Shown in pieces: positions 3,983 through 25,296 of a stretch of DNA of 25,296 nucleotides. This DNA comes from a virus. The translations under genes and the position numbers were made by a program. The notes under the pieces are model-generated. The model did no database searches, had not been told where the DNA came from, and worked only from the letters and a program-made list of their open reading frames with translations. The stretch lies in the IMG/VR virus record IMGVR_UViG_3300034190_002397, positions 1 to 25,296 of that record, one strand, 5' to 3'. Position 1 is the first letter of the stretch; every line of letters starts with the position of its first letter.

Positions 3983-5603
3983 AAATGATGGTTACTTAGG
4001 TAATGATAAACTAAAAAAAGTAGGTGTAGACCTTCCATATACGGAAGAACAAGTAACAGAAATTTTAAAATGTACAGAAGATCCAATATATTTCATTAAG
4101 AAATATGTAAAGATTGTCAATGTAGATTTAGGTATTGTTGATTTTGATATGTGGCCATTTCAAGAAGATATGGTAGATGGTTTTCATAAGAATCGTTTTT
4201 CAATATGTAAAATGCCACGACAAGTTGGTAAAACAACTACAACTGTTGGTTATATGTTATGGGCTGTTTTATTCAATCCTGATTATACAATTGGTATTCT
4301 CGCAAACAAAGGCCAACTTGCAAGAGAAATACTTGGTCGTTTACAAAGAGCATACGAGTATCTACCTTTATGGTTACAACAAGGTATTATAAATTGGAAC
4401 AAAGGTAATATAGAATTAGAAAATGGTTCTAAAATATATGCCTATGCAACATCTAATTCAGGTGTTCGAGGTGGTACTTACAACTTAATATTCCTTGATG
4501 AGTTTGCTTTCGTGCCTCATAATATGGCACAAGAGTTTTTTACTGCTACATACCCTGTAATATCATCAGGTAAAACAACAAAAGTAATTATTGTTTCTAC
4601 GCCAAATGGTTTGAATATGTTTTATAAAATGTGGACAGATGCAATAGAAAAAAGGTCAACATATAATCCAATTGAAGTTCATTGGTCTAGTGTTCCTGGT
4701 AGAGATGATGATTGGAAGAAAGAAACAATACGAAATACATCTGAGGAACAATTCAGACAAGAGTTTGAAACTGAATTTATAGGTTCTTCAGCTACTTTAG
4801 TATCTGGATCTAAACTTAGGTCACTTGCATTTTTCAATCCAATTAGTACAATTGACAAATTAGATATGTACGAAGAACCAAAAGAAGGTCATGTTTACAT
4901 AGCTACAGTTGATTGTTCGGAGGGTGTTGGTCAAGATTACTCGGCCATAAATATCATAGATGCAACACAAACGCCTTACAGGCAAGTTGCAAAATATAGA
5001 GCAAACGATTTACCTTTATTATTTTTTCCAAATATAATTTATTCAATTGGTATGAAGTACAATGGTGCATATATTCTAATTGAAACAAACAATATTGGCC
5101 AACAAGTGGTTGATATTTTACATTATGATTTAGAATATGAAAACATTTATAAGATAGATCAACATCACATAAAAGGTCAGACAATATCAGGAGGGTTTAG
5201 ACGAAACTCATCTTTTGGTATTAAAACCACTAAATCAGTTAAAAAAATTGGTTGTGCAAACTTAAAAACACTTATTGAAAGTGATAAGTTAATTATTGTT
5301 GACTTTGATACAATTGCAGAACTCAATTCATTTGTCCGTGTTCGTGATTCATACGCAGCTGAAGAAGGTAATAATGATGATTTAGCTATGGGACTTGTAT
5401 TATTTGGTTGGTTAACAGCACAATCTTATTTTAAAGATAGCACAAATGTTGATGTTCGTTCAATTTTATTGAAAGAACAAAGTCTTTTAATCGAAGAAAG
5501 TTTAACTCCAGTTGGTATAATTGATGATGGGTTACAAGAAGAAGTAACAGTTGATAGTGGTGATGTTTGGACAAAAAGTGGTCAGTTTAACACAAGATTG
5601 TAA
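3972..5603 (+). CDS. 17: Terminase large subunit gp17 (packaging ATPase and nuclease)
   Basis: This is the packaging motor that pumps DNA into the prohead and cuts the concatemer. The N-terminal ATPase has Walker A MPRQVGKT (81-88), Walker B LIFLDE (172-177) and the coupling motif VSTPNG (209-213 region). The C-terminal RNase H-type nuclease supplies acidic metal ligands: Asp in ATVDCSEG (D314), Glu in IETNN (E371) and the NNDDLAMG pair (D469/D470). At 543 residues it is shorter than T4 gp17 (610) but has all catalytic parts. The start at 3972 lies inside the end of gp16 with AGG-type spacing upstream (AAAAGGTAAAAGAG). It is followed by a 65-base gap with a late promoter for gp18, so gp13 to gp17 probably form one transcript. 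Confidence 0.97.
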   Translation: MPNKNDGYLGNDKLKKVGVDLPYTEEQVTEILKCTEDPIYFIKKYVKIVNVDLGIVDFDMWPFQEDMVDGFHKNRFSICKMPRQVGKTTTTVGYMLWAVLFNPDYTIGILANKGQLAREILGRLQRAYEYLPLWLQQGIINWNKGNIELENGSKIYAYATSNSGVRGGTYNLIFLDEFAFVPHNMAQEFFTATYPVISSGKTTKVIIVSTPNGLNMFYKMWTDAIEKRSTYNPIEVHWSSVPGRDDDWKKETIRNTSEEQFRQEFETEFIGSSATLVSGSKLRSLAFFNPISTIDKLDMYEEPKEGHVYIATVDCSEGVGQDYSAINIIDATQTPYRQVAKYRANDLPLLFFPNIIYSIGMKYNGAYILIETNNIGQQVVDILHYDLEYENIYKIDQHHIKGQTISGGFRRNSSFGIKTTKSVKKIGCANLKTLIESDKLIIVDFDTIAELNSFVRVRDSYAAEEGNNDDLAMGLVLFGWLTAQSYFKDSTNVDVRSILLKEQSLLIEESLTPVGIIDDGLQEEVTVDSGDVWTKSGQFNTRL

Positions 5604-5668: not shown

Positions 5669-7636
5669 ATGGCATTTCAGCTATCACCAGGAGTAAACGT
5701 ATCTGAGATTGATCTCACTACAATTGTTCCTTCAGTTGCCACTTCCATTGGCGCTACCGCTGGACAGTTTGCTTGGGGACCTGCAAATGAGGTTTTTACT
5801 ATATCGAATGAAGTAATATTGCAGGAAAGATTTGGAAACCCTGATGATGGAAACTACGAATACTGGTTTTCAGCGGCAAACTTCTTAGCATATGGAAATA
5901 ATTTAAAAGTTGTAAGAGCAGTAAGTAAAGATTATGCGACAGGCTCACTAAATGCTGCTGCAAATGTCGGTGGTGCAATACTTATAGAGAATGATGATGA
6001 CTATGATTTAAATCATAGTTCAGGAAATACGAGTGTAGGTCCTTTTGCAGCTAAATGGGCAGGTGCAAGAGGTAATTCATTAAGAATCTCTATTTGCCCA
6101 AGTACAAACGCATTTTCACAAAATATATCACAATCACCTGCAAGTTTTTCTGTTACTGCAAACGCAATGAATTATCTTGTAGATAATACACAAGTAATCA
6201 ATGTTAAAAAAGTAGATGCAAACGGATATATTACAGGAACGCCTACAGGACCTAAAGTAATAGTAGGTGATAAAGTTTCAGTAGATGGTGGCACAACTTA
6301 TAAAGATGTTGTAGCCGCAAATGCTACTTCCATAACAGTTGCATCTGCTCAAGCATTTGCAGCTAATATTGCAAACAACACAGCTGTTCTTCGTAAATGG
6401 CAATATGCTGACGATTTCAAGATCGCACCAGGAACTTCAGACTATGCAAATGGTAGAAATGCTACAGGTGATGAATTACACGTTGCAGTTCTTGATGAAG
6501 ATGCAGAGTTTACAGGTACAGCAAATACATTTTTAGAAAAGTTTGTAGCTGTTTCTAAGGCTACTGATGCTCTTAATTCAGAAGGTGCATCAAATTTCTA
6601 TAAGAATGTGGTTAACGATCAATCTGAATATGTTTGGTGGCAAGCACATCAAAATGGTGGTACCAATTGGGGTACAACCACTACTGCTACATCAACATTT
6701 ACAAATATAGATACACCTTTTAGTGCATCAATGGTACAAGGTGCTAATGGCGCTGTTTCAACCGCTAATGTTGTAACTGCTTTCGGTGAATTTACAGATC
6801 CAGCCGCAGTTGACATTAATTTAATTGTAACAGGTCCAGCAGTTTCTACTGTTAGTGCTTATGCAATAGATAATATTGCATTAACTCGTAAAGATTGTAT
6901 GGTATTCTTATCACCTGAAAGAGCAGATGCTTTAAATAACGCTGGTAGTGAAGCTACTGATATAATTGCATATCGTAACTCACTCACATCAACATCATTT
7001 GCCTTTATGGATTCTGGATACAAATATCAGTATGACAAATACAATGATGTATTCAGATATGTGCCATTAAACGGTGATATGGCGGGTCTATGTGTAAGAA
7101 CAGACTTAGAGAGAGATCCATTTTTCTCACCTGCTGGTTTGAATCGTGGTATTATCAAAAATGTAGTTAAACTTGGTTATAACCCATCAAAAGCGGATAG
7201 AGATGATCTTTACAGTAACGGTGTTAACCCTGTGGTTACATTCCAAGGCGAAGGTACAGTATTGTTTGGAGATAAAACAATGCAATCTAAGCCTTCAGCG
7301 TTTGATAGAATTAATGTTCGTAGATTGTTTATCTTGTTAGAAAAGGCAATATCAAGAGCTGCAAGATTCTCACTCTTTGAATTTAACGATCAATTCACAC
7401 GTTCACAATTTGTTGCTCTTGTAGAACCATTCTTGAGAGATATACAAGGGCGCCGTGGCATAACAGACTTCAGAGTTGTTTGTGATGAATCAAATAATAC
7501 TGGTGAAGTCATAGATCGTAACGAGTTTGTAGGTGATATTTACATTAAACCTGCAAGGTCTATTAACTTTATACAACTCAATTTCGTTGCAGTAAGAACG
7601 GGAGTTTCATTTGACGAGATTGTAGGACGCTTCTAA
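5669..7636 (+). CDS. 18: Tail sheath protein gp18
   Basis: This 655-residue protein is the contractile sheath subunit (T4 gp18, 659 residues). It stacks as hexameric rings around the tail tube and contracts on infection. The N-terminus FQLSPGVNVSEIDLTTIVP (3-21) is the classic sheath opening, which donates a strand to the neighbouring subunit, followed by GATAGQFAWGPANE. The C-terminal 130 residues are the most conserved part: RINVRRLFILLEKAISRAAR, the FVALVEPFLRDIQGRRG segment and the final F-D-E-I-V-G-R-F. The middle (about 150-420) is Ala/Thr/Asn-rich and variable, as expected for the surface-exposed domains. The start is supported by AGAGGAG just upstream. It is followed by a 26-base gap to gp19 with another late motif overlapping its stop. 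Confidence 0.96.
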   Translation: MAFQLSPGVNVSEIDLTTIVPSVATSIGATAGQFAWGPANEVFTISNEVILQERFGNPDDGNYEYWFSAANFLAYGNNLKVVRAVSKDYATGSLNAAANVGGAILIENDDDYDLNHSSGNTSVGPFAAKWAGARGNSLRISICPSTNAFSQNISQSPASFSVTANAMNYLVDNTQVINVKKVDANGYITGTPTGPKVIVGDKVSVDGGTTYKDVVAANATSITVASAQAFAANIANNTAVLRKWQYADDFKIAPGTSDYANGRNATGDELHVAVLDEDAEFTGTANTFLEKFVAVSKATDALNSEGASNFYKNVVNDQSEYVWWQAHQNGGTNWGTTTTATSTFTNIDTPFSASMVQGANGAVSTANVVTAFGEFTDPAAVDINLIVTGPAVSTVSAYAIDNIALTRKDCMVFLSPERADALNNAGSEATDIIAYRNSLTSTSFAFMDSGYKYQYDKYNDVFRYVPLNGDMAGLCVRTDLERDPFFSPAGLNRGIIKNVVKLGYNPSKADRDDLYSNGVNPVVTFQGEGTVLFGDKTMQSKPSAFDRINVRRLFILLEKAISRAARFSLFEFNDQFTRSQFVALVEPFLRDIQGRRGITDFRVVCDESNNTGEVIDRNEFVGDIYIKPARSINFIQLNFVAVRTGVSFDEIVGRF

Positions 7637-15887: not shown

Positions 15888-17354
15888 ATGGCAGATATAA
15901 TTTTAAATAAATTAAACGAATCTTTTTTAAAAGTCGAATGTGAACCACACTATGAAATGGAATTATCTTCTTATTTTACTTTCTACGTTCCTGGTTATCG
16001 TTTCATGCCTGCTTACAAGAGCCGAGCATGGAATGGACAAATTTGTTTATTCAACAGACGTAACCACACGATATATTATGGCCTCATACCACACATAAAA
16101 AAATTTTGTTCCGAGAGAGATTATAAGCTTGAACTTTCTCCAGATGTTAACATAACATATTCATTAAGTCTAGTTGAGGCAGTAGACTTTATTAAGACAT
16201 TAGATTTACCTTTTGAGGTTAGAGATTATCAATTACAATCATTTGTACAATGTATAAGAAATAAAAGAAGGCTCATATTATCACCAACAGCCTCTGGTAA
16301 ATCATTAATCTTATATCTAATTGTTCGATACTTAATGAAAGATCATGATAAAGGTCTTTTAATCGTACCTACAACTTCCCTTGTTGAACAAATGTTTACA
16401 GATTTCAAATCTTATGGTTTCGATTCTGATAAACATTGTCATCGCCAGTATTCAGGTAAAGAAAAACACACAAATAGTTTTCTAACAATATCTACATGGC
16501 AATCTGTTTATAAAAACGATAAAGAATACTTTGAACAATTTGATTTTGTAATTGGTGATGAAGCACATCAGTTTAAAGCTAAATCACTTACTACAATACT
16601 ATCAAATTGTATTAACTCTAAATATAGGATAGGAACAACAGGCACCTTAGATGGTACTCAAACACATAGATTAGTTTTAGAAGGACTCTTTGGCCCTGTT
16701 TATAAAGCTACAACAACATCAGAACTCATAGAGAAAGGACAACTTGCTGATTTTAGAATTAAATGTTTAATTTTAAAATATGATGAATCAATAAGACAAC
16801 AAGCAAGAAAATGGGATTACAATTCAGAAATAGATTACATTGTTAAAAGTGAGGCAAGAAATACTTTTATTCGTAATTTAACTTTGTCTTTGAAAGGTAA
16901 TACATTAATTTTATACCAATATGTAGAGAAACATGGTAAAAATTTGTATGACAATATTCAAAGTAAAGCTGGTAAAAGAAAAACCTTTTTTGTCTTTGGT
17001 GGAACAGATACAGAAATTAGAGAGTCAGTTCGATCAATTCTTGAAAATGAAGATGATGCAATAGTTGTAGCGAGTTATGGTACTTTTAGTACAGGTATTA
17101 ATATTCGCAATCTTCACAATATAATCTTTGCAAGCCCATCAAAATCTAGAATAAGAAATTTACAATCAATAGGAAGAGGACTTCGTAAGAGTGAAACAAA
17201 AGAAAAAGCCACCTTATTTGATATAGCAGATGATTTTCGTATAGGCAAATTTGCCAATTATACGTTGAAACATTTTATAGAAAGGTGTAAAATATATGAT
17301 GAAGAGAAATTCGCCTATAAATTTTATAACATAGAGTTGAAAAATGGAAAATAA
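15888..17354 (+). CDS. uvsW: RNA-DNA/DNA-DNA helicase UvsW
   Basis: This 488-residue superfamily 2 helicase corresponds to T4 UvsW (about 503 residues). UvsW regresses stalled forks, branch-migrates recombination intermediates and removes R-loops, ending origin-dependent replication. Visible motifs are Q-type VRDYQLQSF (111-119), Walker A SPTASGKS (132-139), motif Ia IVPTTSLVEQ (159-168), DEAH (224-227), motif III RIGTTGTL (247-254), and motif VI QSIGRGLRK (426-434). The N-terminal 95 residues (with YRFMPAYKSRAWNGQICLFN, 37-56) match the small UvsW N-terminal domain involved in nucleic-acid binding. The start at 15888 has no clear Shine-Dalgarno and follows uvsY by 12 bases, so coupling is likely. 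Its last codons overlap the next gene by 11 bases. Confidence 0.96.
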   Translation: MADIILNKLNESFLKVECEPHYEMELSSYFTFYVPGYRFMPAYKSRAWNGQICLFNRRNHTIYYGLIPHIKKFCSERDYKLELSPDVNITYSLSLVEAVDFIKTLDLPFEVRDYQLQSFVQCIRNKRRLILSPTASGKSLILYLIVRYLMKDHDKGLLIVPTTSLVEQMFTDFKSYGFDSDKHCHRQYSGKEKHTNSFLTISTWQSVYKNDKEYFEQFDFVIGDEAHQFKAKSLTTILSNCINSKYRIGTTGTLDGTQTHRLVLEGLFGPVYKATTTSELIEKGQLADFRIKCLILKYDESIRQQARKWDYNSEIDYIVKSEARNTFIRNLTLSLKGNTLILYQYVEKHGKNLYDNIQSKAGKRKTFFVFGGTDTEIRESVRSILENEDDAIVVASYGTFSTGINIRNLHNIIFASPSKSRIRNLQSIGRGLRKSETKEKATLFDIADDFRIGKFANYTLKHFIERCKIYDEEKFAYKFYNIELKNGK

Positions 17355-17757
17355 AGAAATCAAAATAATAAGATTAAAGTCCGGAGAAGATGTAATAGCC
17401 ACTTTCACAGAAAATAAAAAAGAGAAGAGAGTGACTTTAGAAAATCCAATGCACATAATTTTCAAAAGATCACCCACATCTGAAGGCATAACTCCAATGA
17501 TGTATATGTATCCTTGGGTACCAGTAGAAATGGTAGAGAAAGACATAGCGTTTATAGATTCTGTAAATGTTTTAACTACATTTCAACCAAAAGGTGAGAT
17601 GATAGAATATTATGAAAACGTAATCATTGATGCAAAAGAAAGAGCTAAAAAATTAGGTGATCAAAAAGTTTTTGAAGAAGATATTGAATATGATGATGAT
17701 ATAGATGAAATTAAAGAAGCTTTGAGAGAAAGAAAAACAAAAAAAATGGTGCATTAA
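17344..17757 (+). CDS. Sm-like (LSm-type) small protein, putative
   Basis: This 137-residue protein begins with a segment that reads like the first half of an Sm fold: IKIIRLKSGEDVIATFTENK (6-25), then KRVTLENPMHIIF (28-40). It is followed by MYMYPWVPVEMVEKDIAFID (53-72) and a second strand pair, VNVLTTFQPKGEMIEYY (75-91). Small proteins with this K-I-x-R-L-x-S-G-E-D-V pattern recur in marine phages. A hexameric RNA-binding ring is possible by analogy with Hfq, but no RNA-binding residues can be assigned. The C-terminal 50 residues are acidic then basic (EEDIEYDDDIDEIKEALRER, 111-130) and look helical or disordered. It overlaps uvsW by 11 bases and touches the next gene through TAATG, so it is co-translated with both. 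Confidence 0.6.
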   Translation: MENKEIKIIRLKSGEDVIATFTENKKEKRVTLENPMHIIFKRSPTSEGITPMMYMYPWVPVEMVEKDIAFIDSVNVLTTFQPKGEMIEYYENVIIDAKERAKKLGDQKVFEEDIEYDDDIDEIKEALRERKTKKMVH

Positions 17758-18425
17758 TGGATTATAAAGATGTGATTGTAAAAAAACCTTGGGGTCAAGA
17801 ATACCTTTGTTATCATAACAAAGAAATTGCCATTTGGTTTTTACATATAAAAAAAGGAGAAAAAACTTCCTTGCATTGTCACCCAAATAAAAATACTGGC
17901 TTTGTTGTTCTTAAAGGGCAAACAAAGTTGTCATTTATAAGAGGTGGTGTTGACATATATGGTTTAAATAAAATTAATATATTTCGTTCAAGGTTTCATT
18001 CTACATATGCTGTAACAGATTCTTTTATATTTGAGATTGAAACTCCTGAAGATAAAGAAGATTTAGTAAGATTAGAAGATTCTTATGGTAGAGAGGGTGA
18101 AAAGTATGAAAGCTCTAGTCATCATTTACCTAAAAATGATTCTTGTGTGTGGCTAGATGAAGCTTCATTAAGTCCTAAACACTTAGATGTGTGTGGTTGT
18201 TGCATACAACACATGGAAATAATTGATAAAAAAGAGTTACTAAATAAGAAAGAAGAAGAAATATTTGTCATAACAAATGGTGGTTTAGTCACAGATGAGA
18301 ATGGTAAAAGACAAAAAATATTATGGCCAGGTGATGTTATTGATGGTGAAACATTACATAGACTAGCTACTGCATTTAAATTGGATTATAACACAACTGT
18401 ATTACATATAATAAAAAATGTTTGA
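17757..18425 (+). CDS. Bicupin protein, sugar-isomerase-like
   Basis: This 222-residue protein holds two cupin domains. The first begins KKPWGQEYLCYHNKEIAIWF (9-28), the same layout as phosphomannose-isomerase/ManC-type cupins. It then has GEKTSLHCHPNK, in which H40 and H42 are metal ligands, VVLKG as the turn, and H81 as the distal ligand. The second copy (about 165-215) reads EEIFVITNGGLVTDENGK, then WPGDVIDGETLHRLATAF. A CGCC cluster (146-149) between the two might bind metal. Enzymes of this shape isomerise or epimerise sugar phosphates or act as sugar-binding sensors. The exact reaction is not decidable from sequence alone. The gene opens the accessory block; it overlaps the Sm-like gene by one base and the nuclease gene by eight. 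Confidence 0.72.
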   Translation: MDYKDVIVKKPWGQEYLCYHNKEIAIWFLHIKKGEKTSLHCHPNKNTGFVVLKGQTKLSFIRGGVDIYGLNKINIFRSRFHSTYAVTDSFIFEIETPEDKEDLVRLEDSYGREGEKYESSSHHLPKNDSCVWLDEASLSPKHLDVCGCCIQHMEIIDKKELLNKKEEEIFVITNGGLVTDENGKRQKILWPGDVIDGETLHRLATAFKLDYNTTVLHIIKNV

Positions 18426-18900
18426 ATATAACTGTAAAATTATAAAAGTAGTAGATGGCGACACAGTAGATGTTGACATTGATTTAGGATTCGGTCTTTG
18501 GATTCATAATGAACGAATACGAATGTATGGTATAGACACGCCTGAATCTAGAACTAGAGATTTAGTAGAAAAAAAATATGGGATATTTGCAAAAGAATTT
18601 GTAGAGGCACACTTACCTTTAAATAGTATTACAACATTAAGAACAAAAAAAGATAAAGTAGGTAAGTTTGGTCGTGTTTTAGGTGAATTTGTATTGAGAG
18701 AGCCAACTTCTGATTTAACGGGACTTATTAAAATAGAAACGCTCAATCAGTTGATGATTCATTTTAAAATTGGTGTTGCATATCATGGCCAAGCTAAAGA
18801 ATTAATAGAACACGAACATAGAAAAAATAGAGATTTAGTTGACTTGACTTGTTTAGATAATATGAATTGGCCTGTGAAAAAAGATGATACATTTATTTGA
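18418..18900 (+). CDS. Thermonuclease-family (staphylococcal nuclease-like) nuclease
   Basis: This 160-residue protein has the complete SNase catalytic set: KVVDGDTVDVDIDL (10-23), RIRMYGIDTPESR (33-45) and KDKVGKFGRVLGE (78-90). The residues equivalent to Arg35, Asp40, Thr41, Glu43 and Arg87 of the staphylococcal enzyme appear as R35, D40, T41, E43 and R86. No signal peptide is visible, so it would act in the host cytoplasm, perhaps in degrading host nucleic acid or trimming DNA during replication. Small cytoplasmic SNase proteins of this type are common in marine T4-like phages. It overlaps the cupin gene at its 5' end and the HAD gene by 17 bases at its 3' end, so it is embedded in the accessory operon although its role is not metabolic. 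Confidence 0.88.
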   Translation: MFEYNCKIIKVVDGDTVDVDIDLGFGLWIHNERIRMYGIDTPESRTRDLVEKKYGIFAKEFVEAHLPLNSITTLRTKKDKVGKFGRVLGEFVLREPTSDLTGLIKIETLNQLMIHFKIGVAYHGQAKELIEHEHRKNRDLVDLTCLDNMNWPVKKDDTFI

Positions 18901-19378
18901 TTTAGATAAAACATTATGGGATTGCCAAAATAAATACGAAAAAGAAATATGGGCTAAACAATTAGTACCACCTTTCAAATTTGCCACCCATTATTCAGAA
19001 AATATTGTTATTGATGATGTTCTCTCTCGTTGCGAGTTGAGAGAAGGTGTTAAAGATTATTTTAAAAAAATATCAATACCAGAAAATAAAATAGGATTTT
19101 TATCTGTGGGTGCATATCATGGTATGGAAATGGAAAGACAACCTAGTGTTAAATTATTACAAAAGTTCAACATTTACGAATATTTTACACACACTAAAGT
19201 TCTACAATACAAAACTTTTGACAAAAAAGAAATTTTAGAATTAGTTAAAAAAGAGTCTGATGGTGAAGAAATTGTGTTTTATGATGATGATGAAAAAAAT
19301 TTAGATAAAGCTAAGAGTTTAGGTATTAAAGCTGTTGACTCTTTAAATATAAAAAATTGGAATTTGTATGTCGGTTGA
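18884..19378 (+). CDS. HAD-superfamily phosphatase (MDP-1/HAD-IIIC-like)
   Basis: This 164-residue protein carries HAD motif I FDLDKTLWDC (5-14; nucleophile D6, acid/base D8), a serine motif II at GFLSVG (S74), a lysine near residues 114-115 and motif IV FYDDDEKNLDKAKSLG (132-147). The DxDxTLW form is typical of the HAD-IIIC group, which includes magnesium-dependent phosphatase-1 and some sugar or acyl-phosphate phosphatases. The lack of a large cap domain suggests an accessible active site for a sizeable or flexible substrate. Being next to a heptose-type kinase and sugar-isomerase-like cupin, it may remove phosphate from a sugar phosphate, as GmhB does in heptose synthesis. This is inference. 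It overlaps the nuclease gene by 17 bases and the radical SAM gene by 11. Confidence 0.78.
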   Translation: MIHLFDLDKTLWDCQNKYEKEIWAKQLVPPFKFATHYSENIVIDDVLSRCELREGVKDYFKKISIPENKIGFLSVGAYHGMEMERQPSVKLLQKFNIYEYFTHTKVLQYKTFDKKEILELVKKESDGEEIVFYDDDEKNLDKAKSLGIKAVDSLNIKNWNLYVG

Positions 19379-20879
19379 TATTCTTTTTGTACACCCTAAT
19401 GCCTCTGAAAAAATTTACCAAGGATTATCATCTAGAAATTCTGCCATAGAACCACCTATTTGGGCTGCTATGTTGGCCAAAAGTGTTCTATCATTAGGAT
19501 ACAGAGCTGAATTAATTGATGCTGAAGTTGAAGGTTTAAGTTATACAGAAACAGCTAAAAGAATTTTTGTATATAAACCTAGAATAGTATGTTTTGTAGT
19601 TTATGGCCAACAACCTAGTGCATCATCTCAGAACATGGAAGGTGCTACAAAAGTATCCGAAATATTTAAACTACTTGAACCCGAAAGTTTTGTATTATAT
19701 GTTGGTGGTCATGTTTCAGCTTTACCTGTTGAAACATTAGAGAAGCATAGTGAGATTGATGCAGTATGTCAGAATGAAGGTGTATATACAATAAATCAAC
19801 TAATACAATCTAATTTATCTCACGAACAATTGAGGAATGTAGAAGGTCTGGTTTATAAAGTAGACAATCAAATTATAGTAAACAAACCATCACCAGTTGT
19901 ACCTAAAAAACATTTAGAACGTGATTTACCTGGAATGGCATGGGAGTTATTACCAAATTTAAAAAATTATAGAACAGCTGGTTGGCACTCTTGGTCAAAT
20001 AATACAGAGAAACAACCTTTTGCAGCTTTATATACAAGTCTTGGCTGCCCCTATAAATGTTCTTTCTGTATGATAAACATTATTAACAGAACAAAACCTG
20101 GACCTGAAATAACAAGTGAAGATAGTAATATATTTCGTTGGTGGTCACCAGAGTTTATCATAAAACAATTCGACCATATTGCAGAACAAGGTGTAAAGAA
20201 TGTAAAGATTGCTGATGAATTATTTGTTTTAAATCCTAACCACTTTATAAAAATATGTGATTTAATAATTGAAAGAGGTTATGATTTTAATATTTGGGCA
20301 TACTCAAGAGTTGATACTTGTAAACCACAATACTTAGAGAAATTAAAACAAGCCGGTGTAAATTGGCTTGGACTTGGTATAGAAAATCCTAACAATGTAT
20401 TAAGACAAGAAATACACAAAGGTGGATTTAAAGATGTGAAAGTTTTAGATTTGATTAATACAGTTCGTGATGCTGGTATAAATGTGGGTGGTAATTACAT
20501 ATTTGGTTTACCTTATGATACACATGAAACAATGCAAGATACTTTAGATTTTGCATTAGAAAATCCAACAGAAATGGCCAATTTTTATTCTGCTATGGCC
20601 TATCCAGGAAGTCCACTACATAAGGAAGCTAGAAAAAATAAAATTATTTTACCAGAAACATATGCAGGTTATAGCCAACACTCATACGAAACACAAAACT
20701 TATCAAATGATTATTTAAAGGCATCAGAAATTTTAGAGTTTAGAGATTATGCTTGGGATACTTACCACTCACATCCAAAATATTTAAGTCTAATGCAACA
20801 TAAGTTTGGTAAAAAAGCTGTAGATGAATTAGATAGTACAAAGAAAGTTAAATTGAAAAGAAAATTATTAGGAGATTGA
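19368..20879 (+). CDS. Cobalamin-binding-domain radical SAM enzyme
   Basis: This 503-residue protein joins an N-terminal B12-binding-type domain (about 1-150: DILFVHPNA, EPPIWAAMLAKSVLSLGYRA, VGGHVSALP) to a radical SAM TIM barrel. The barrel has the CxxxCxxC cluster motif CPYKCSFC (C227, C231, C234), ADELFV and LGLGIENPNNVLRQEIHKGG. A C-terminal helical tail follows (FRDYAWDTYHSHPKYLSLMQ). This is the architecture of class B radical SAM methylases and of related enzymes that rearrange carbon skeletons. The N-terminal domain lacks a clear DxHxxG B12-ligand motif, as in many members of the family. Such a gene is uncommon in phages. Its start is internal to the HAD gene by 11 bases and its end is one base from the next gene. 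The substrate is unknown. Confidence 0.88.
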   Translation: MSVDILFVHPNASEKIYQGLSSRNSAIEPPIWAAMLAKSVLSLGYRAELIDAEVEGLSYTETAKRIFVYKPRIVCFVVYGQQPSASSQNMEGATKVSEIFKLLEPESFVLYVGGHVSALPVETLEKHSEIDAVCQNEGVYTINQLIQSNLSHEQLRNVEGLVYKVDNQIIVNKPSPVVPKKHLERDLPGMAWELLPNLKNYRTAGWHSWSNNTEKQPFAALYTSLGCPYKCSFCMINIINRTKPGPEITSEDSNIFRWWSPEFIIKQFDHIAEQGVKNVKIADELFVLNPNHFIKICDLIIERGYDFNIWAYSRVDTCKPQYLEKLKQAGVNWLGLGIENPNNVLRQEIHKGGFKDVKVLDLINTVRDAGINVGGNYIFGLPYDTHETMQDTLDFALENPTEMANFYSAMAYPGSPLHKEARKNKIILPETYAGYSQHSYETQNLSNDYLKASEILEFRDYAWDTYHSHPKYLSLMQHKFGKKAVDELDSTKKVKLKRKLLGD

Positions 20880-20880
20880 T

Positions 20881-21414
20881 ATGAATTTGATGAAAGCATT
20901 AATTATAACATGGGAAAACTTTCAAGACCAGGAAGTTGTTTATCCTTATTACAGGCTAAAAGAAGAAACTGATGATGTAAAAATTATATCTAATGTAACA
21001 GGTAGATTTCATGGCATCATGGGTGTAAATATGACCTCTCATGATACGTTAGATAATTTAACAAATTATTCTAATTATGATTTTTTAGTTTTACCTGGAG
21101 GTGTTAAGTCATTAGAAAAACTAAGACAAGAAAAAGATGTCTTAGAGTTTATTCGCCAATGGGATGTAGATGGTAAATTGATAGCTTCAACTTGTCATGG
21201 CGCTCAGTTGATGATATCCGCTAAAATTACAGAAGGTAGAAAAATAAGTGGTTATTATAGTATTAAAGATGATATAAACAATTCTGGTGCAATATATGTT
21301 GATGCACCTTCTGTTAGTGATGGTAATATTGTATCTTCACCACACTACGATCATATGGGTGCTTGGATGAAAGAGGCAATTACATTATATTATGCAAACG
21401 CTGAACGAGGATAA
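20881..21414 (+). CDS. DJ-1/PfpI-family protein
   Basis: This 177-residue protein has the flavodoxin-like DJ-1/PfpI fold: MKALIITWENFQDQEVVYPY (4-23) with the conserved Glu at 18, YDFLVLPGG (66-74), and the nucleophile elbow ASTCHGAQLM (102-111; C105, H106). The C-terminal region SDGNIVSSPHYDHMGAWMKE closes the fold. Family members include proteases/deglycases (PfpI, YajL), hydratases and glyoxalase-III-type enzymes acting on reactive aldehydes and ketones. Such a function would suit a pathway producing reactive sugar intermediates from the neighbouring TPP enzyme. The call to the family is firm, the biochemical role is not. The start at 20881 follows AGGAG six bases away. It overlaps the E1 alpha gene by 23 bases, so the two are coupled. 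Confidence 0.88.
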   Translation: MNLMKALIITWENFQDQEVVYPYYRLKEETDDVKIISNVTGRFHGIMGVNMTSHDTLDNLTNYSNYDFLVLPGGVKSLEKLRQEKDVLEFIRQWDVDGKLIASTCHGAQLMISAKITEGRKISGYYSIKDDINNSGAIYVDAPSVSDGNIVSSPHYDHMGAWMKEAITLYYANAERG

Positions 21415-22267
21415 ACTCCTTAGAATACATATTAAGGCATCATATTGTAGGGCGTTTGAAGAAGAAGTTTTTGACCTTGTACAAAAAAAGATAATTAAAA
21501 TACCAGTTTATCTTTCCGCTGGGCAAGAATATATATCAGCAACTTTATCTCAATTATTACTTGATGTTGATAAACAGATATTCATACAACACAGAGGTCA
21601 TTCAACCTATCTAAATTTTGGTCGTATGGAACATAATTATAATGAACCAGGTTTAGATCCTATTTACGAGCTTCATATGAAATATTTGGCTCTAGAATTA
21701 TTGGGTGATAAAAAAGGTTGTGCAAATGGTATGGGTGGTTCTGCCTCAATACAATCAAAGAAAAATAACATATATGGTCATGATGGTCTTATGGGTTCTC
21801 ATGGCCCTATTGCCACAGGTGCCTGTTATGGTAATAAAAAATTCACTCTTTGTTTTATTGGTGATGCAGCTGCTGAAGAAGATTATTTTTTAGGTGCTTT
21901 AGGTTGGGCATCAACAAAAAAATTACCAATATGGTTTATCGTTGAAGATAATAATCTCTCTATTCTTACCGAGAAAAAAGTTAGAAGAAACTGGGAGATG
22001 AATGATGTTGCAAAAGCTTTCAAAATGAAATCACATAGTTGTACTGATGATCCAAAAGATTTAGCTCTTCGTTTCTATAAAACTTCAATTGAAGAGCCTG
22101 CATTGTTTAATGTAAAAACTAATCGTTTATTTTGGCACGCTGGTGCAGGTATAGATGACCCTGATACACCAGACTTACATAAAAAATACATCAAATATTT
22201 TGGACCTAAATACAGTAAAGAAGCAAAAGATTATGTGAAAGAACTGTGGAAAAAATGGTTAACGTAA
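21392..22267 (+). CDS. Thiamine-diphosphate-dependent dehydrogenase/transketolase-like E1 alpha subunit
   Basis: This 291-residue protein resembles the E1 alpha chain of 2-oxoacid and acetoin dehydrogenases, which bind thiamine diphosphate. Ordered motifs are HRGHSTYL (67-74), GCANGMGGSAS (109-119, equivalent to the GKGGSMH region), GSHGPIATGACYG (135-147) and the TPP-binding GDAAAEED (157-164), ending at N188 in EDNN. The usual second glycine of GDG is replaced by Ala. It is about 30-80 residues shorter than typical bacterial E1 alpha, mainly at the N-terminus and in the C-terminal phosphorylation-loop region. It is paired with an E1 beta gene that overlaps it by 13 bases. No E2 or E3 gene is here, so a stand-alone acyloin/decarboxylase or transketolase-like reaction is more plausible than a dehydrogenase complex. 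Confidence 0.87.
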   Translation: MQTLNEDKLLRIHIKASYCRAFEEEVFDLVQKKIIKIPVYLSAGQEYISATLSQLLLDVDKQIFIQHRGHSTYLNFGRMEHNYNEPGLDPIYELHMKYLALELLGDKKGCANGMGGSASIQSKKNNIYGHDGLMGSHGPIATGACYGNKKFTLCFIGDAAAEEDYFLGALGWASTKKLPIWFIVEDNNLSILTEKKVRRNWEMNDVAKAFKMKSHSCTDDPKDLALRFYKTSIEEPALFNVKTNRLFWHAGAGIDDPDTPDLHKKYIKYFGPKYSKEAKDYVKELWKKWLT

Positions 22268-23166
22268 AAGATACAATAAAAGACGTTGTTCGTTATCATC
22301 TAAAAGAAAAAAATGGTTTGGCTTTAGGTCAATGTTTAACTGCTGTAGGTTGGGTTGGTGGAACTTTGCCAGAATTATATGAAGAAGATGGTATGGTTGA
22401 ACTTTCTATGGCTGATGTTGCAGGTGGTGGCATAGCAGTTGGTATGGCTCTAGCAAATCGTAGACCAATGTATGTAATACGCTATCAAGGTTTTAATTGG
22501 TACAATGCACCAAGCATTATAAATTATGCAGCTAAATCAAAGGAGATATGGGATGTATCATGCCCAATATTTGTTCGCTCCATTGCAATGGAAGGTGGGA
22601 TTGGTCCTGTAGCAGGATCATCTCACCACTCCTTGTATTATAGAATGCCTGGAATAAAAATATATTCACCAATGACACCTAATGAATATAAAGAAGTTTA
22701 TAAAAATTTTATGAATGAAGATGAAGTTTATTATGTTTCAGAACACCGAGGTTCTTACAATAATACTGAAGAGTTACCAGATATAATTCAAAAAGATGCT
22801 AAAGTCACTTTATTTCCTATTTCTATAACAAGATTTGCAGCTGTTGAAGCCGCAAAAGAATTAGAAAAAGAAGGCACAAAAGTTAATATAATACACATCA
22901 ATCAAATAAAACCTTTTAAAATAAAAAAAGAATATGTGAACTTTATTACAAATGGATTAGTCATAGATGATGATTATGTTGATGGTATTGCTAAAGCTAT
23001 ATCATACGACATACAAAAAATTACAAATAAAAAAATAGATGTTTTAGGTCTTGAAAATAAAACTGCTGGTTTTTATAAACAAGTAGATAATCTACCACCT
23101 ACAAAAGAAAAAATTATTGGTAAAATAAAAAAACTGTTAGAGGATAATTATAATGATAATAACTAA
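22255..23166 (+). CDS. Thiamine-diphosphate-dependent E1 beta subunit (transketolase-like)
   Basis: This 303-residue protein is the partner of the upstream E1 alpha. After the N-terminal ALGQC and GGTLPELYEEDGMVELSMAD strand comes the typical AGGGIAVGMALANRRPMYVI glycine-rich helix. It is followed by RYQGFNWYNAPSIINYAAKS, GPVAGSSHHSLYYRMPG, and a C-terminal transketolase-C-like domain (KVTLFPISITRFAAVEAAKE). The conserved TPP-activating Glu of the family (in PISE-x-G) seems replaced by Asp in SMADVAGG (D54 by this start). I chose ATG 22255 over GTG 22246, nine bases upstream in frame, because both lack a strong ribosome site and ATG is the commoner codon. The pair should assemble as an alpha2-beta2 heterotetramer with TPP at the subunit interfaces. 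The substrate is unknown. Confidence 0.87.
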   Translation: MVNVKDTIKDVVRYHLKEKNGLALGQCLTAVGWVGGTLPELYEEDGMVELSMADVAGGGIAVGMALANRRPMYVIRYQGFNWYNAPSIINYAAKSKEIWDVSCPIFVRSIAMEGGIGPVAGSSHHSLYYRMPGIKIYSPMTPNEYKEVYKNFMNEDEVYYVSEHRGSYNNTEELPDIIQKDAKVTLFPISITRFAAVEAAKELEKEGTKVNIIHINQIKPFKIKKEYVNFITNGLVIDDDYVDGIAKAISYDIQKITNKKIDVLGLENKTAGFYKQVDNLPPTKEKIIGKIKKLLEDNYNDNN

Positions 23167-24127
23167 AACACCTTATAGACTTTCATTGTTCGGTGGTGGC
23201 ACAGATTATTCTGATTGGTATAGTTTTAATAAATCAAGAATTATGTCAGCTGCAATAAATCATCATTGTTTTTTGAGTGTAAAAGATTTACCTCCTTATT
23301 TCAGTTATAAGTATAGAGTGTCCTATTCAAGATTGGAAGCAGTAAATTCAATTGACGATATAGATCACCCATCTGTAAGAAATTGTTTAAAACATTTAGG
23401 CATGGAACAAAGTTTAACAATTACACATGATGGTGAAATGCCGGCAAAATCTGGTGTAGGTTCTAGCTCTGCTTTTACTGTTGGTTTATTAAATGCTTTA
23501 TTTCATAAAAAAGGCTTTAATCTTACACCAAGAGATTTAGCTGAAAAAGCAATTCATGTTGAACAAGTATTGAATCATGAGAGTGTTGGTATTCAAGATC
23601 AAATTACAGCTGCGTATGGTGGTATGAATATAATTACAGCTGGCTTAGGTAAAGAATGGGAAGTAGAACCAGTTAAAATATCAGATGAATATTTGAAAGA
23701 ATTGGAAAGTCACATACTTTTAGGATTTTCAGGTAAGAGTAGAATTGCAGAAGTACAGGCAAGAAAACAAGTAGAAAGAATTGGTAAAAATAAAAATTAT
23801 TTAAATGAAATTGCAAGTGTAGCCGATATGGGTATAAATTATATTTTGAAAGAAGATGGTATAGAAAAAGTAGCTAGTCTTTTAACAGCCACTTGGCAAT
23901 TTAAAAAACATTTAACAGATAATTTGACGAATCAAAAACTAGATTATATATTTGATCTATCGGAAAAAAATGGATCATTAGGTGGAAAATTAATGGGTGC
24001 TGGAGGTGGTGGATTTTTTATGTTTGTTGTACCTCCAGAGAAACAAGAAAAATTTAAAAAAGCACTCAACCACATAAAAGTTTGGGTGCCTTTCAGACTT
24101 AGTAAAGGAGGAAGTGAAGTCATATGA
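23153..24127 (+). CDS. GHMP kinase, D-glycero-D-manno-heptose-7-phosphate kinase-like (HddA-like)
   Basis: This 324-residue GHMP kinase begins MIITKTPYRLSLFGGGTDYS (1-20), the signature N-terminus of the HddA/GmhB-pathway heptose kinases. It has the ATP-binding loop PAKSGVGSSSAFTVGLLNAL (97-116), HVEQVLNHESVGIQDQI (135-151), and C-terminal motif 3 GGKLMGAGGGGFFMFVVP (277-294). These match D-glycero-alpha-D-manno-heptose-7-phosphate kinases, which phosphorylate the anomeric position before nucleotidyl transfer to give GDP- or ADP-heptose type precursors. Related kinases act on other sugars such as L-fucose, so the substrate is probable rather than proven. SD AGAGGATAATTATA precedes the ATG, and the 5' end overlaps E1 beta by 14 bases. 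It would supply an activated sugar phosphate in the accessory pathway. Confidence 0.85.
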   Translation: MIITKTPYRLSLFGGGTDYSDWYSFNKSRIMSAAINHHCFLSVKDLPPYFSYKYRVSYSRLEAVNSIDDIDHPSVRNCLKHLGMEQSLTITHDGEMPAKSGVGSSSAFTVGLLNALFHKKGFNLTPRDLAEKAIHVEQVLNHESVGIQDQITAAYGGMNIITAGLGKEWEVEPVKISDEYLKELESHILLGFSGKSRIAEVQARKQVERIGKNKNYLNEIASVADMGINYILKEDGIEKVASLLTATWQFKKHLTDNLTNQKLDYIFDLSEKNGSLGGKLMGAGGGGFFMFVVPPEKQEKFKKALNHIKVWVPFRLSKGGSEVI

Positions 24128-24309: not shown

Positions 24310-24328
24310 TTTGTCAACCCTTTGTCAA
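24310..24328 (+). repeat. Direct repeat TTTGTCAA x2 ahead of the oxygenase gene
   Basis: TTTGTCAA occurs at 24310-24317 and again at 24321-24328, spaced by CCC (period 11), in the 30-base gap before the oxygenase start. The period equals about one helical turn, which would suit two bound protein copies on the same face. It overlaps the region of the ribosome site. Confidence 0.4.
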
Positions 24329-24336
24329 GGAATATT

Positions 24337-24936
24337 ATGCAGAATTACCAAGAAACTTTTGAAAAAAAAGGATATGTTTTAGTAAAAGAATTTATACCTA
24401 AAACAGTAGCTACATACTTATTTGAATACTTAAAATTTTCAAGTCATGCTTTGCTTTTGTCAGGAAAGGCAGTTGTTGGAGATAAGCAAGTTCCAAATTC
24501 TTTTGCACCAAGACATGGTGATATGGCCTTTCAGGCATTAATGAAACATATGCGACCTACAATGGAGATTATTACCGGGTTGGACTTGTGTCCTACTTAC
24601 ACTTATGTTAGACTATATCGTGAAGGTAGTATTTTAAAGAAGCATAAAGATAGACCTTCATGTGAAATATCAGTAACAGTAAAACTATCGGATACAAAAA
24701 AAAATGACTACAATTGGCCCATTTATATGGATGGTACTGAATGTATTTTAGAAGATGGTGATGCAGTAATTTATCGAGGTTGTGATTATGAACATTGGCG
24801 TGAACCTTGCGAAGGTGGTGAAAATTATCGTTTAGGGCAGGTGTTTTTACATTATATTGATAAAAATGGTCCTCATTATCCTGAATACGCTTATGATCAA
24901 AAACCATATACCAAATTATTTGAAAGTGAATTATGA
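24337..24936 (+). CDS. 2-oxoglutarate/Fe(II)-dependent dioxygenase
   Basis: This 199-residue protein has a double-stranded beta-helix oxygenase core with the HxD...H metal set: H103 and D105 in LKKHKDRPSCEI, and H153 in YEHWREP. A basic residue for 2-oxoglutarate is R165 in NYRLGQVFLHY. The N-terminal domain (YQETFEKKGYVLVKEFIPKT, 4-23) is the usual lead-in of phytanoyl/prolyl-hydroxylase-like phage oxygenases. Such small oxygenases are frequent in marine T4-like phages, with substrates (protein, nucleobase or small molecule) mostly unknown. I take ATG 24337, with AAGG six bases upstream, rather than the TTG at 24322. It overlaps gp55 by ATGA, so it is probably transcribed with the sigma factor. 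Confidence 0.83.
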   Translation: MQNYQETFEKKGYVLVKEFIPKTVATYLFEYLKFSSHALLLSGKAVVGDKQVPNSFAPRHGDMAFQALMKHMRPTMEIITGLDLCPTYTYVRLYREGSILKKHKDRPSCEISVTVKLSDTKKNDYNWPIYMDGTECILEDGDAVIYRGCDYEHWREPCEGGENYRLGQVFLHYIDKNGPHYPEYAYDQKPYTKLFESEL

Positions 24937-25296
24937 GTAAAGAATCGAAACACTACGTTAAAAATGCAGATTTTTTAGAAGCTTTAATAAAATACAAAGA
25001 AGCTTGTGAACTTGCTAAAGAAGAAAACAAAGAAGATCCTCCCATACCAAATTATATTGGTGAATGTTTTTTTAAAATAGCTGAACATCTATCAAGAAAA
25101 CCTAACTTCATATCATACTCATTCCGTGATGAAATGATCTCAGATGGTATAGAAAATTGCCTAATGTATTTTCGTAATTTTAATCCAGAGAAAAGTAAAA
25201 ACCCATTTGCATATTTTACACAAATAATTTATTATGCCTTTTTAAGAAGAATCACTAAAGAGAAAAAACAATTATATGTAAAATACAAGGCAACAG
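24933..25296 (+). CDS. 55: Late sigma factor gp55 (3' truncated by window)
   Basis: The first 121 residues are present and the gene continues beyond the window. They match T4 gp55, the sigma70-related factor that directs host RNA polymerase to late promoters together with the gp33 co-activator and the gp45 clamp. Diagnostic segments are FLEALIKYKEACELAKEENK (14-33), IGECFFKIAEHLSRKPNFIS (42-61) with FRDEMISDGIENCLMYFRNF, and the stretch KNPFAYFTQIIYYAFLRRIT (89-108) with K-EKKQLYVKYKA following. The Y-F-T-Q-I-I-Y-Y-A-F-L-R-R-I pattern is the sigma region 2 helix that melts the -10 element. The promoter octamers found in this window are the expected targets. The start overlaps the oxygenase stop by ATGA, with GAAAGTG as a weak ribosome site. 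Confidence 0.93.
   Translation, partial: MSKESKHYVKNADFLEALIKYKEACELAKEENKEDPPIPNYIGECFFKIAEHLSRKPNFISYSFRDEMISDGIENCLMYFRNFNPEKSKNPFAYFTQIIYYAFLRRITKEKKQLYVKYKAT

Follow-up and report, generated by a model that had tools for sequence, protein, structure and literature searches.

A swappable thiamine-enzyme gene cassette of a marine T4-like phage, possibly for a branched or higher-carbon sugar

We analysed a gene cassette at positions 17757-24127 of the IMG/VR virus record IMGVR_UViG_3300034190_002397, the whole of which (25,296 bases, no further sequence belonging to the record) is called the window here. The cassette encodes a bicupin, a nuclease, a HAD phosphatase, a radical SAM enzyme, a DJ-1/PfpI protein, a split thiamine diphosphate (ThDP) enzyme of the pyruvate dehydrogenase (PDH) E1 type and a GHMP sugar kinase. 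These genes recur together in other phages and in bacteria, and ThDP enzymes of different classes take each other's place among them. We propose that the cassette makes an unusual nucleotide-activated deoxy sugar, branched or of higher carbon number, which would become part of a surface glycan, a reading whose chances we put at about even. The window contains the T4-like myovirus markers major head protein, terminase, uvsW-type helicase and gp55, and its major capsid protein shows 62% identity to the nearest isolate relatives (cyanophages, Methylophilales phages and Pelagibacter phages). The virus is a T4-like phage of marine bacteria. The cassette is placed between the uvsW-type helicase and gp55 with every gene on the + strand.

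Co-occurrence and exchange of the thiamine enzymes

An earlier sequence-only reading had proposed a phage-borne small-molecule pathway, to be checked by looking for the same gene set in related phages, the alternative being scattered single auxiliary metabolic genes (AMGs). We scanned IMG/VR with the radical SAM enzyme and with the cupin as anchors, keeping E1 out of the criteria. Each collection scan comprised the best 80 matches, and the counts are therefore samples. The counts refer to distinct anchor proteins whose contigs extend 5 kb or more downstream, and a ThDP partner was sought within 6 kb. A ThDP enzyme was present at 49 of 52 radical SAM loci, as an E1 pair at 26 (one with an AHAS-type, i.e. 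acetohydroxyacid synthase-type, enzyme too), as an AHAS-type enzyme alone at 16 and as a short E1 pair at 7. The cupin was accompanied by DJ-1 at all 41 loci and by a ThDP enzyme at 40 (E1 pair 33, AHAS-type 7), the only locus without one being the window's sibling L064/L142. These counts contradict scattered AMGs and support the cassette as one functional set. Among INPHARED isolates the full set is absent, since no true E1-beta relative was found, the radical SAM enzyme reaches at best 23% identity (in a Streptomyces phage) and the GHMP kinase at most 39%.

Three ThDP types alternate in these loci: a long E1 pair, an AHAS-type protein of about 590-620 residues and a short E1 pair. Six records (L073, L079, L084, L088, L090, L091) share the order uvsW (where the contig reaches), radical SAM, AHAS-type enzyme of 611-619 residues, GHMP kinase, DegT, short-chain dehydrogenase/reductase (SDR) and gp55, with cupin, DJ-1 and E1 missing; the gene families of L073 were checked by Pfam and NCBIfam. 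Five others (L189, L191, L192, L196, L202) carry DJ-1, the cupin and mostly HAD too, followed by an AHAS-type protein where the E1 pair would stand. The enzyme YerE takes a 4-keto-3,6-dideoxy sugar as its substrate. It is an AHAS-like flavoprotein and represents one of two known routes to a two-carbon sugar branch, the other being the PDH-E1-like AviB1/AviB2 (Pau11/Pau12, Plm8/Plm9), with pyruvate as the donor (PMC4425429, PMC4802897, PMC4753412). Mainly because the E1 and AHAS classes replace each other beside a 3-dehydrase, we infer from enzyme class and gene company that the product may be a branched or extended sugar.

Several further genes were seen near the alternating enzymes. The third ThDP type, a short E1-alpha/E1-beta-like pair (about 204 and 178 residues), lies near radical SAM genes in L099 (9532-10682), L107 (2957-4101), L125 and L127 (14421-15562). 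PanB, ketopantoate hydroxymethyltransferase, adjoins the AHAS-type enzyme in the marine phage record L104 (9514-12400) and likewise in L096, L100, L105, L108 and L109, its identity being backed by Pfam in L104 only; such an arrangement could lead to an acyl branch of an unusual kind. Open reading frames (ORFs) that by eye resemble malate/lactate dehydrogenase and flavin mononucleotide-dependent hydroxyacid dehydrogenase lie near AHAS-type genes in L200 (9041-10081) and L201 (9001-10194).

The E1 pair

The split ThDP subunits had been recognised in the sequence-only reading; a PDH-type E1-alpha/E1-beta pair fits them better than transketolase. The pair shows the homology of a 2-oxo-acid dehydrogenase E1, with an intact ThDP motif GDA...EDNN in the alignment of E1-alpha homologues, but lacks the catalytic Glu of E1-beta. 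In a locally gap-free alignment Asp57 occupies the position of this Glu in the Bacillus stearothermophilus PDH E1-beta, and each of the 58 homologue rows that have a letter there, near-copies among them, likewise has Asp. Short, separate E1-beta proteins of other phages retain Glu. No E2 acyltransferase was found in 16 phage records, which are fragments, and an E2 from the host is possible; because none was found, the E1 pair probably stands outside any dehydrogenase complex. The substituted Asp, together with the failure to find E2 in these records, argues against the E1-beta subfamily being a standard dehydrogenase E1. PHROGs holds no family for the E1 pair of L008. Relative to the other 12 aligned homologues, the window's E1-alpha is longer by an insert of about 16 residues (FGRMEHNYNEPGLDPIYELHMK replacing FGG-DM..).

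Sugar genes in phage relatives and bacterial carriers

Most T4-like relatives encode an SDR and a protein of the DegT family directly downstream of the GHMP kinase. The DegT profile matches ColD, the GDP-4-keto-6-deoxy-mannose 3-dehydratase, at 2e-102, and its invariant His185 (10 sequences) aligns with His188 of ColD, the His that replaces the Lys binding pyridoxal phosphate. Many relatives have, in the gap between E1-beta and GHMP, either a DUF4422 protein or a protein of 301 residues; the latter shows an invariant HxD...H...R pattern and by eye resembles a 2-oxoglutarate (2OG)/Fe oxygenase, and PHROGs has no family for it as found in L002. The nucleotidyl- or glycosyltransferase partners that the sequence-only reading had sought are present among the relatives: GT2 glycosyltransferases occur in 10 of 16 phage records, ORFs of the HldE-type kinase and adenylyltransferase in divergent phages, and NTP-transferase-type genes near bacterial copies, together with a GmhA-like isomerase near the L038 cassette and an HddC-like guanylyltransferase near that of L050.

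A single scan of a genome collection yielded 38 loci, from Pelagibacteraceae, SAR116, Betaproteobacteria, gammaproteobacterial single cells, bacteria of the candidate phyla radiation (CPR) and a few others. Among the 29 bacterial loci with sufficient context, E1-alpha, cupin and SDR are each nearby in 25, DJ-1 and GHMP each in 22 and DegT in 18. Flagellin adjoins the cassette in L023 and L047 of marine Betaproteobacteria (1134-1139 residues), and also in L029 (judged by length and place only) and L051 (partial), which suggests flagellin glycosylation islands. Among 197 Pelagibacteraceae genomes, 13 encode the E1-beta subfamily; so patchy a distribution is in keeping with surface-glycan genes. 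The E1-beta tree intermingles rows from phages and bacteria, with at least 3 forced label changes; the module has therefore moved between phages and bacteria.

Conservation, selection and exchange

The window's catalytic motifs are kept among homologues for the HAD, radical SAM, DJ-1 and GHMP proteins and for the ThDP site. The N-terminal cupin of the bicupin has His40, His42 and His81 in columns that are invariant among 15 homologues. Its AlphaFold2 model (pLDDT 91) places the N-domain closest to phosphomannose isomerase, the CapF cupin, KdgF and D-lyxose isomerase (Z 13-14); the fold searches point no further than the sugar-cupin superfamily, and the C-terminal half is barely covered by the structures compared. 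Invariant in the HAD protein are DxDxT, Ser74, Lys110/114 and DD134-135 (9 homologues), in the radical SAM enzyme the CxxxCxxC cysteines C227, C231 and C234 (12 homologues) and in the DJ-1/PfpI protein Glu18 and Cys105 (13 homologues). The motifs of the GHMP kinase are intact. Its best equivalog is NCBIfam HddA at 1e-34, with 120 bits against a cut-off of 600 bits, so that the cut-off is missed. The carbon-carbon bond, radical and phosphorylation chemistry that the sequence-only reading had named is supported.

The ratio of nonsynonymous to synonymous substitution rates (dN/dS) of cassette genes lies mostly between 0.03 and 0.2 in phage pairs, and we therefore regard the genes as functional. 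Compared with the sibling L001 it is about 0.05-0.16 for cupin, radical SAM, DJ-1, E1-alpha, E1-beta and GHMP, 0.44 for HAD and 0.34 for the SNase-like gene; higher ratios turn up in some cases where the sequences compared are very close or short, as for HAD and SNase with L001 and for DJ-1 with the sibling L063. Within window positions 20881-22267 DJ-1 and E1-alpha differ from L063 by a synonymous rate dS of 0.09-0.11, compared with 0.30-0.53 for uvsW and radical SAM, which suggests that this segment has recently recombined. The segment missing from the sibling L064 (DJ-1/GHMP junction near 6164-6171) is bounded in the window by copies of an 8-base direct repeat, GAGGATAA, at about 21405 and 23137.

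Proposed pathway and alternatives

In the pathway we propose, a keto sugar would be branched or lengthened by the E1-alpha/beta enzyme, which would attach to it the acyl carbons of a 2-oxo acid such as pyruvate. The GHMP kinase would phosphorylate C1 of a heptose-type aldose, the HAD protein would remove a phosphate in the manner of GmhB, and the cupin may isomerise or epimerise a sugar. The ColD-like enzyme of most T4-like relatives, using pyridoxamine phosphate (PMP), would strip the C3 hydroxyl from a 4-keto-6-deoxy sugar, which the SDR would epimerise or reduce; the radical SAM and DJ-1 proteins might tailor the same intermediate. Heptose phosphate and nucleotidyl transfer would come from host genes. 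A host surface glycan, or flagellin in certain bacterial carriers, would receive the sugar, and the most likely effect during infection would be altered phage receptors. Sugar genes of related marine phages have been proposed to change the surface and so block or alter receptors (PMC7029224).

Several observations weigh against such a pathway. The roles given to the DJ-1, cupin and radical SAM proteins are guesses from family membership, and the Asp at the catalytic Glu position could imply altered or weak ThDP chemistry. GmhA was found in 0 of 17 phage records and NTP_transferase in 1 of 17. A ColD-like gene, an SDR behind the kinase and an NTP_transferase-family nucleotidyltransferase are all missing from the window record, which spans only 25 kb. 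In L064, whose uvsW is 96% identical, E1-alpha/beta are absent and HAD is an internally deleted remnant (4068-4120) while the rest is kept, so the full set is not indispensable. Because ColD and SDR are missing and this sibling lost E1 and HAD, the pathway in the window is incomplete as recorded, and is either finished by host genes, finished by genes outside the record or undergoing trimming.

In this phage the cassette may instead be the decaying relic of a pathway that other carriers have in full, its ORFs still selected and the sugar no longer made without ColD and SDR. ColD and SDR are also absent from the GHMP-gp55 interval of the siblings, and the losses in L064, with the GAGGATAA repeat at the segment ends in the window, agree with decay. 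All window ORFs are intact, however, with conserved catalytic residues; dN/dS against L001 remains low for the six genes named above, HAD and SNase being higher, and the low dS of DJ-1 and E1-alpha to L063 looks like exchange rather than decay. We consider a remnant unlikely. We are similarly doubtful that the E1 pair acts like a transketolase to form a special ketose phosphate, which the cupin would isomerise and GHMP and HAD would convert to a sugar-1-phosphate, yielding a linear, unbranched higher-carbon sugar. Such an order parallels the GmhA/HddA/GmhB/HddC logic, the cupin N-domain is similar to sugar isomerases and L051 contains a transaldolase-like ORF. The subunits nevertheless match PDH E1, the enzymes replacing them belong to the AHAS type, a user of 2-oxo acids, and in some cases neighbour PanB or genes resembling hydroxyacid dehydrogenases, and L038 has GmhA alongside cupin and E1, so that the cupin is no stand-in for GmhA there.

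Homology to PDH E1 might also mark the set as a fragment of a 2-oxo-acid dehydrogenase or as general carbon-metabolism AMGs that feed host energy metabolism and make no glycan. This is very improbable in view of the negative search for E2 in 16 phage records, the replacement of the catalytic Glu by Asp, the constant company of sugar-nucleotide enzymes and the glycan or flagellin loci in bacteria. A DNA modification role, also raised in the sequence-only reading, was rejected because no gene of the set indicates it. The branched or higher-carbon sugar favoured there remains the best reading, strengthened by the ThDP exchange, the ColD-like dehydrase and epimerase in relatives and the surface-glycan and flagellin contexts of bacteria. 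Somewhat more tentatively, phages and ocean bacteria may share a mobile module (DJ-1, cupin, HAD, an interchangeable ThDP carboligase and often radical SAM) for a family of branched or higher-carbon sugars not described before, with Asp for Glu in its E1-beta and an acyl branch varied through the ThDP enzyme and an acid-supplying neighbour.

Comparison with known pathways

The known systems nearest to the cassette include the pathways of two-carbon-branched octoses (AviB1/AviB2 of avilamycin, Pau11/Pau12 of paulomycin) and of yersiniose (YerE), which use the same two ThDP classes in the company of deoxy-sugar genes; most relatives of the window also have the 3-deoxygenating dehydrase. A ThDP carboligase of the E1 class is present in the window and one of the AHAS type in relatives. 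The enzyme making a 4-keto deoxy sugar is found in most T4-like relatives, and since DegT/ColD is not in the incomplete window record we liken the window set to these pathways as working alike, not as a member. The E1 type described here occurs in phages, Gram-negatives and CPR bacteria, whereas the known one has been reported from Gram-positive antibiotic producers, and the cassette adds a constant cupin and DJ-1, often radical SAM, a heptose-type kinase and Asp for Glu.

With the GDP-D-glycero-D-manno-heptose pathway (GmhA, HddA, GmhB, HddC) the cassette shares an HddA-like kinase and a HAD phosphatase, and GmhA-like and HddC-like genes lie near bacterial copies. In contrast to that pathway, nearly all phage records tested are without the isomerase or guanylyltransferase, and the kinase scores under the HddA cut-off. 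The His-type PMP dehydrase of the GDP-colitose pathway is shared by the relatives, where it is joined to ThDP enzymes, unlike the window, which has no ColD. Pelagimyophages and cyanomyophages are likewise marine T4-like phages with lipopolysaccharide/O-chain sugar genes, among them glycosyltransferases, rfaE and cassettes with radical SAM, whose presumed effect is to change the host O-chain (PMC7029224). Thiamine enzymes are unmentioned in the main text of that paper, however, and the cassette described here sits between uvsW and gp55.

If the proposed reading is true, a conserved, swappable module that forms carbon-carbon bonds in marine phages, SAR11, SAR116, Betaproteobacteria and CPR bacteria would be new sugar chemistry in phages. 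Usual phage sugar genes are single glycosyltransferases or common sugar-nucleotide enzymes. The module would then probably change or copy cell-surface receptors and would indicate a class of surface sugar that can be searched for directly; the E1 subfamily with Asp for Glu lends itself to biochemical study.

Layout and remaining genes

The genes that the sequence-only reading had named were all recovered on one strand, at the positions it gave, by family matches (Table 1), and its overlapping frames in one operon hold at seven of eight junctions: from the cupin through the small ORF after GHMP the spacings are -8, -17, -11, +1, -23, -22, -14 and -4 bases. It had overlooked the SNase-like ORF inside the operon. 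The two ORFs after the kinase continue the same run ahead of gp55. Scans for promoters, terminators and the TATAAATA late promoter gave nothing above chance.

Table 1. Genes of the cassette and its flanks in the window
Feature	Position	Strand	Family evidence and remarks
uvsW-type helicase, left flank	15888..17354	+	phrog_16, 4e-100
Bicupin	17757..18425	+	Cupin_2 3e-5
SNase-like nuclease	18418..18900	+	SNase 2e-7; phrog_452 endonuclease 2e-29
HAD phosphatase, MDP-1-like	18884..19378	+	Acid_PPase 3e-8; MDP-1 1.5e-8
B12-binding-type radical SAM enzyme	19368..20879	+	B12-binding + Radical_SAM 1e-19; HpnJ/BchE/AprD4 neighbourhood
DJ-1/PfpI family protein	20881..21414	+	DJ-1_PfpI 7e-36
E1-alpha-type ThDP subunit	21392..22267	+	E1_dh 1.8e-12; PDH E1-alpha in PDB 2e-21
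E1-beta-type subunit	22246..23166	+	Transket_pyr + Transketolase_C 9e-12; PDB 3duf_B 2e-13
GHMP sugar kinase, HddA-like (D-glycero-D-manno-heptose-7-phosphate kinase)	23153..24127	+	GHMP kinase 8e-14; profile match 3k85_A 3e-60
Small ORF, 60 aa	24124..24306	+	no family match; conserved in siblings L001, L064
2OG-oxygenase-like ORF, edge of region	24322..24936	+	phrog_2954 (named 'ferrochelatase') 1e-47; HxD...H motif by eye
gp55 late sigma factor, right flank, truncated by window end	24933..25295	+	phrog_234, 8e-56

The SNase label is confined to the close siblings of the window, other phage cassettes being without such a label, and the gene is a passenger of the window's lineage. It diverges faster than its neighbours, with 89% identity to L001 and 71-72% to L063/L064. 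The 2OG-oxygenase-like ORF probably lies outside the cassette. The name ferrochelatase that PHROGs gives to its family may be wrong, as the ORF shows the HxD...H pattern of 2OG-Fe(II) oxygenases.

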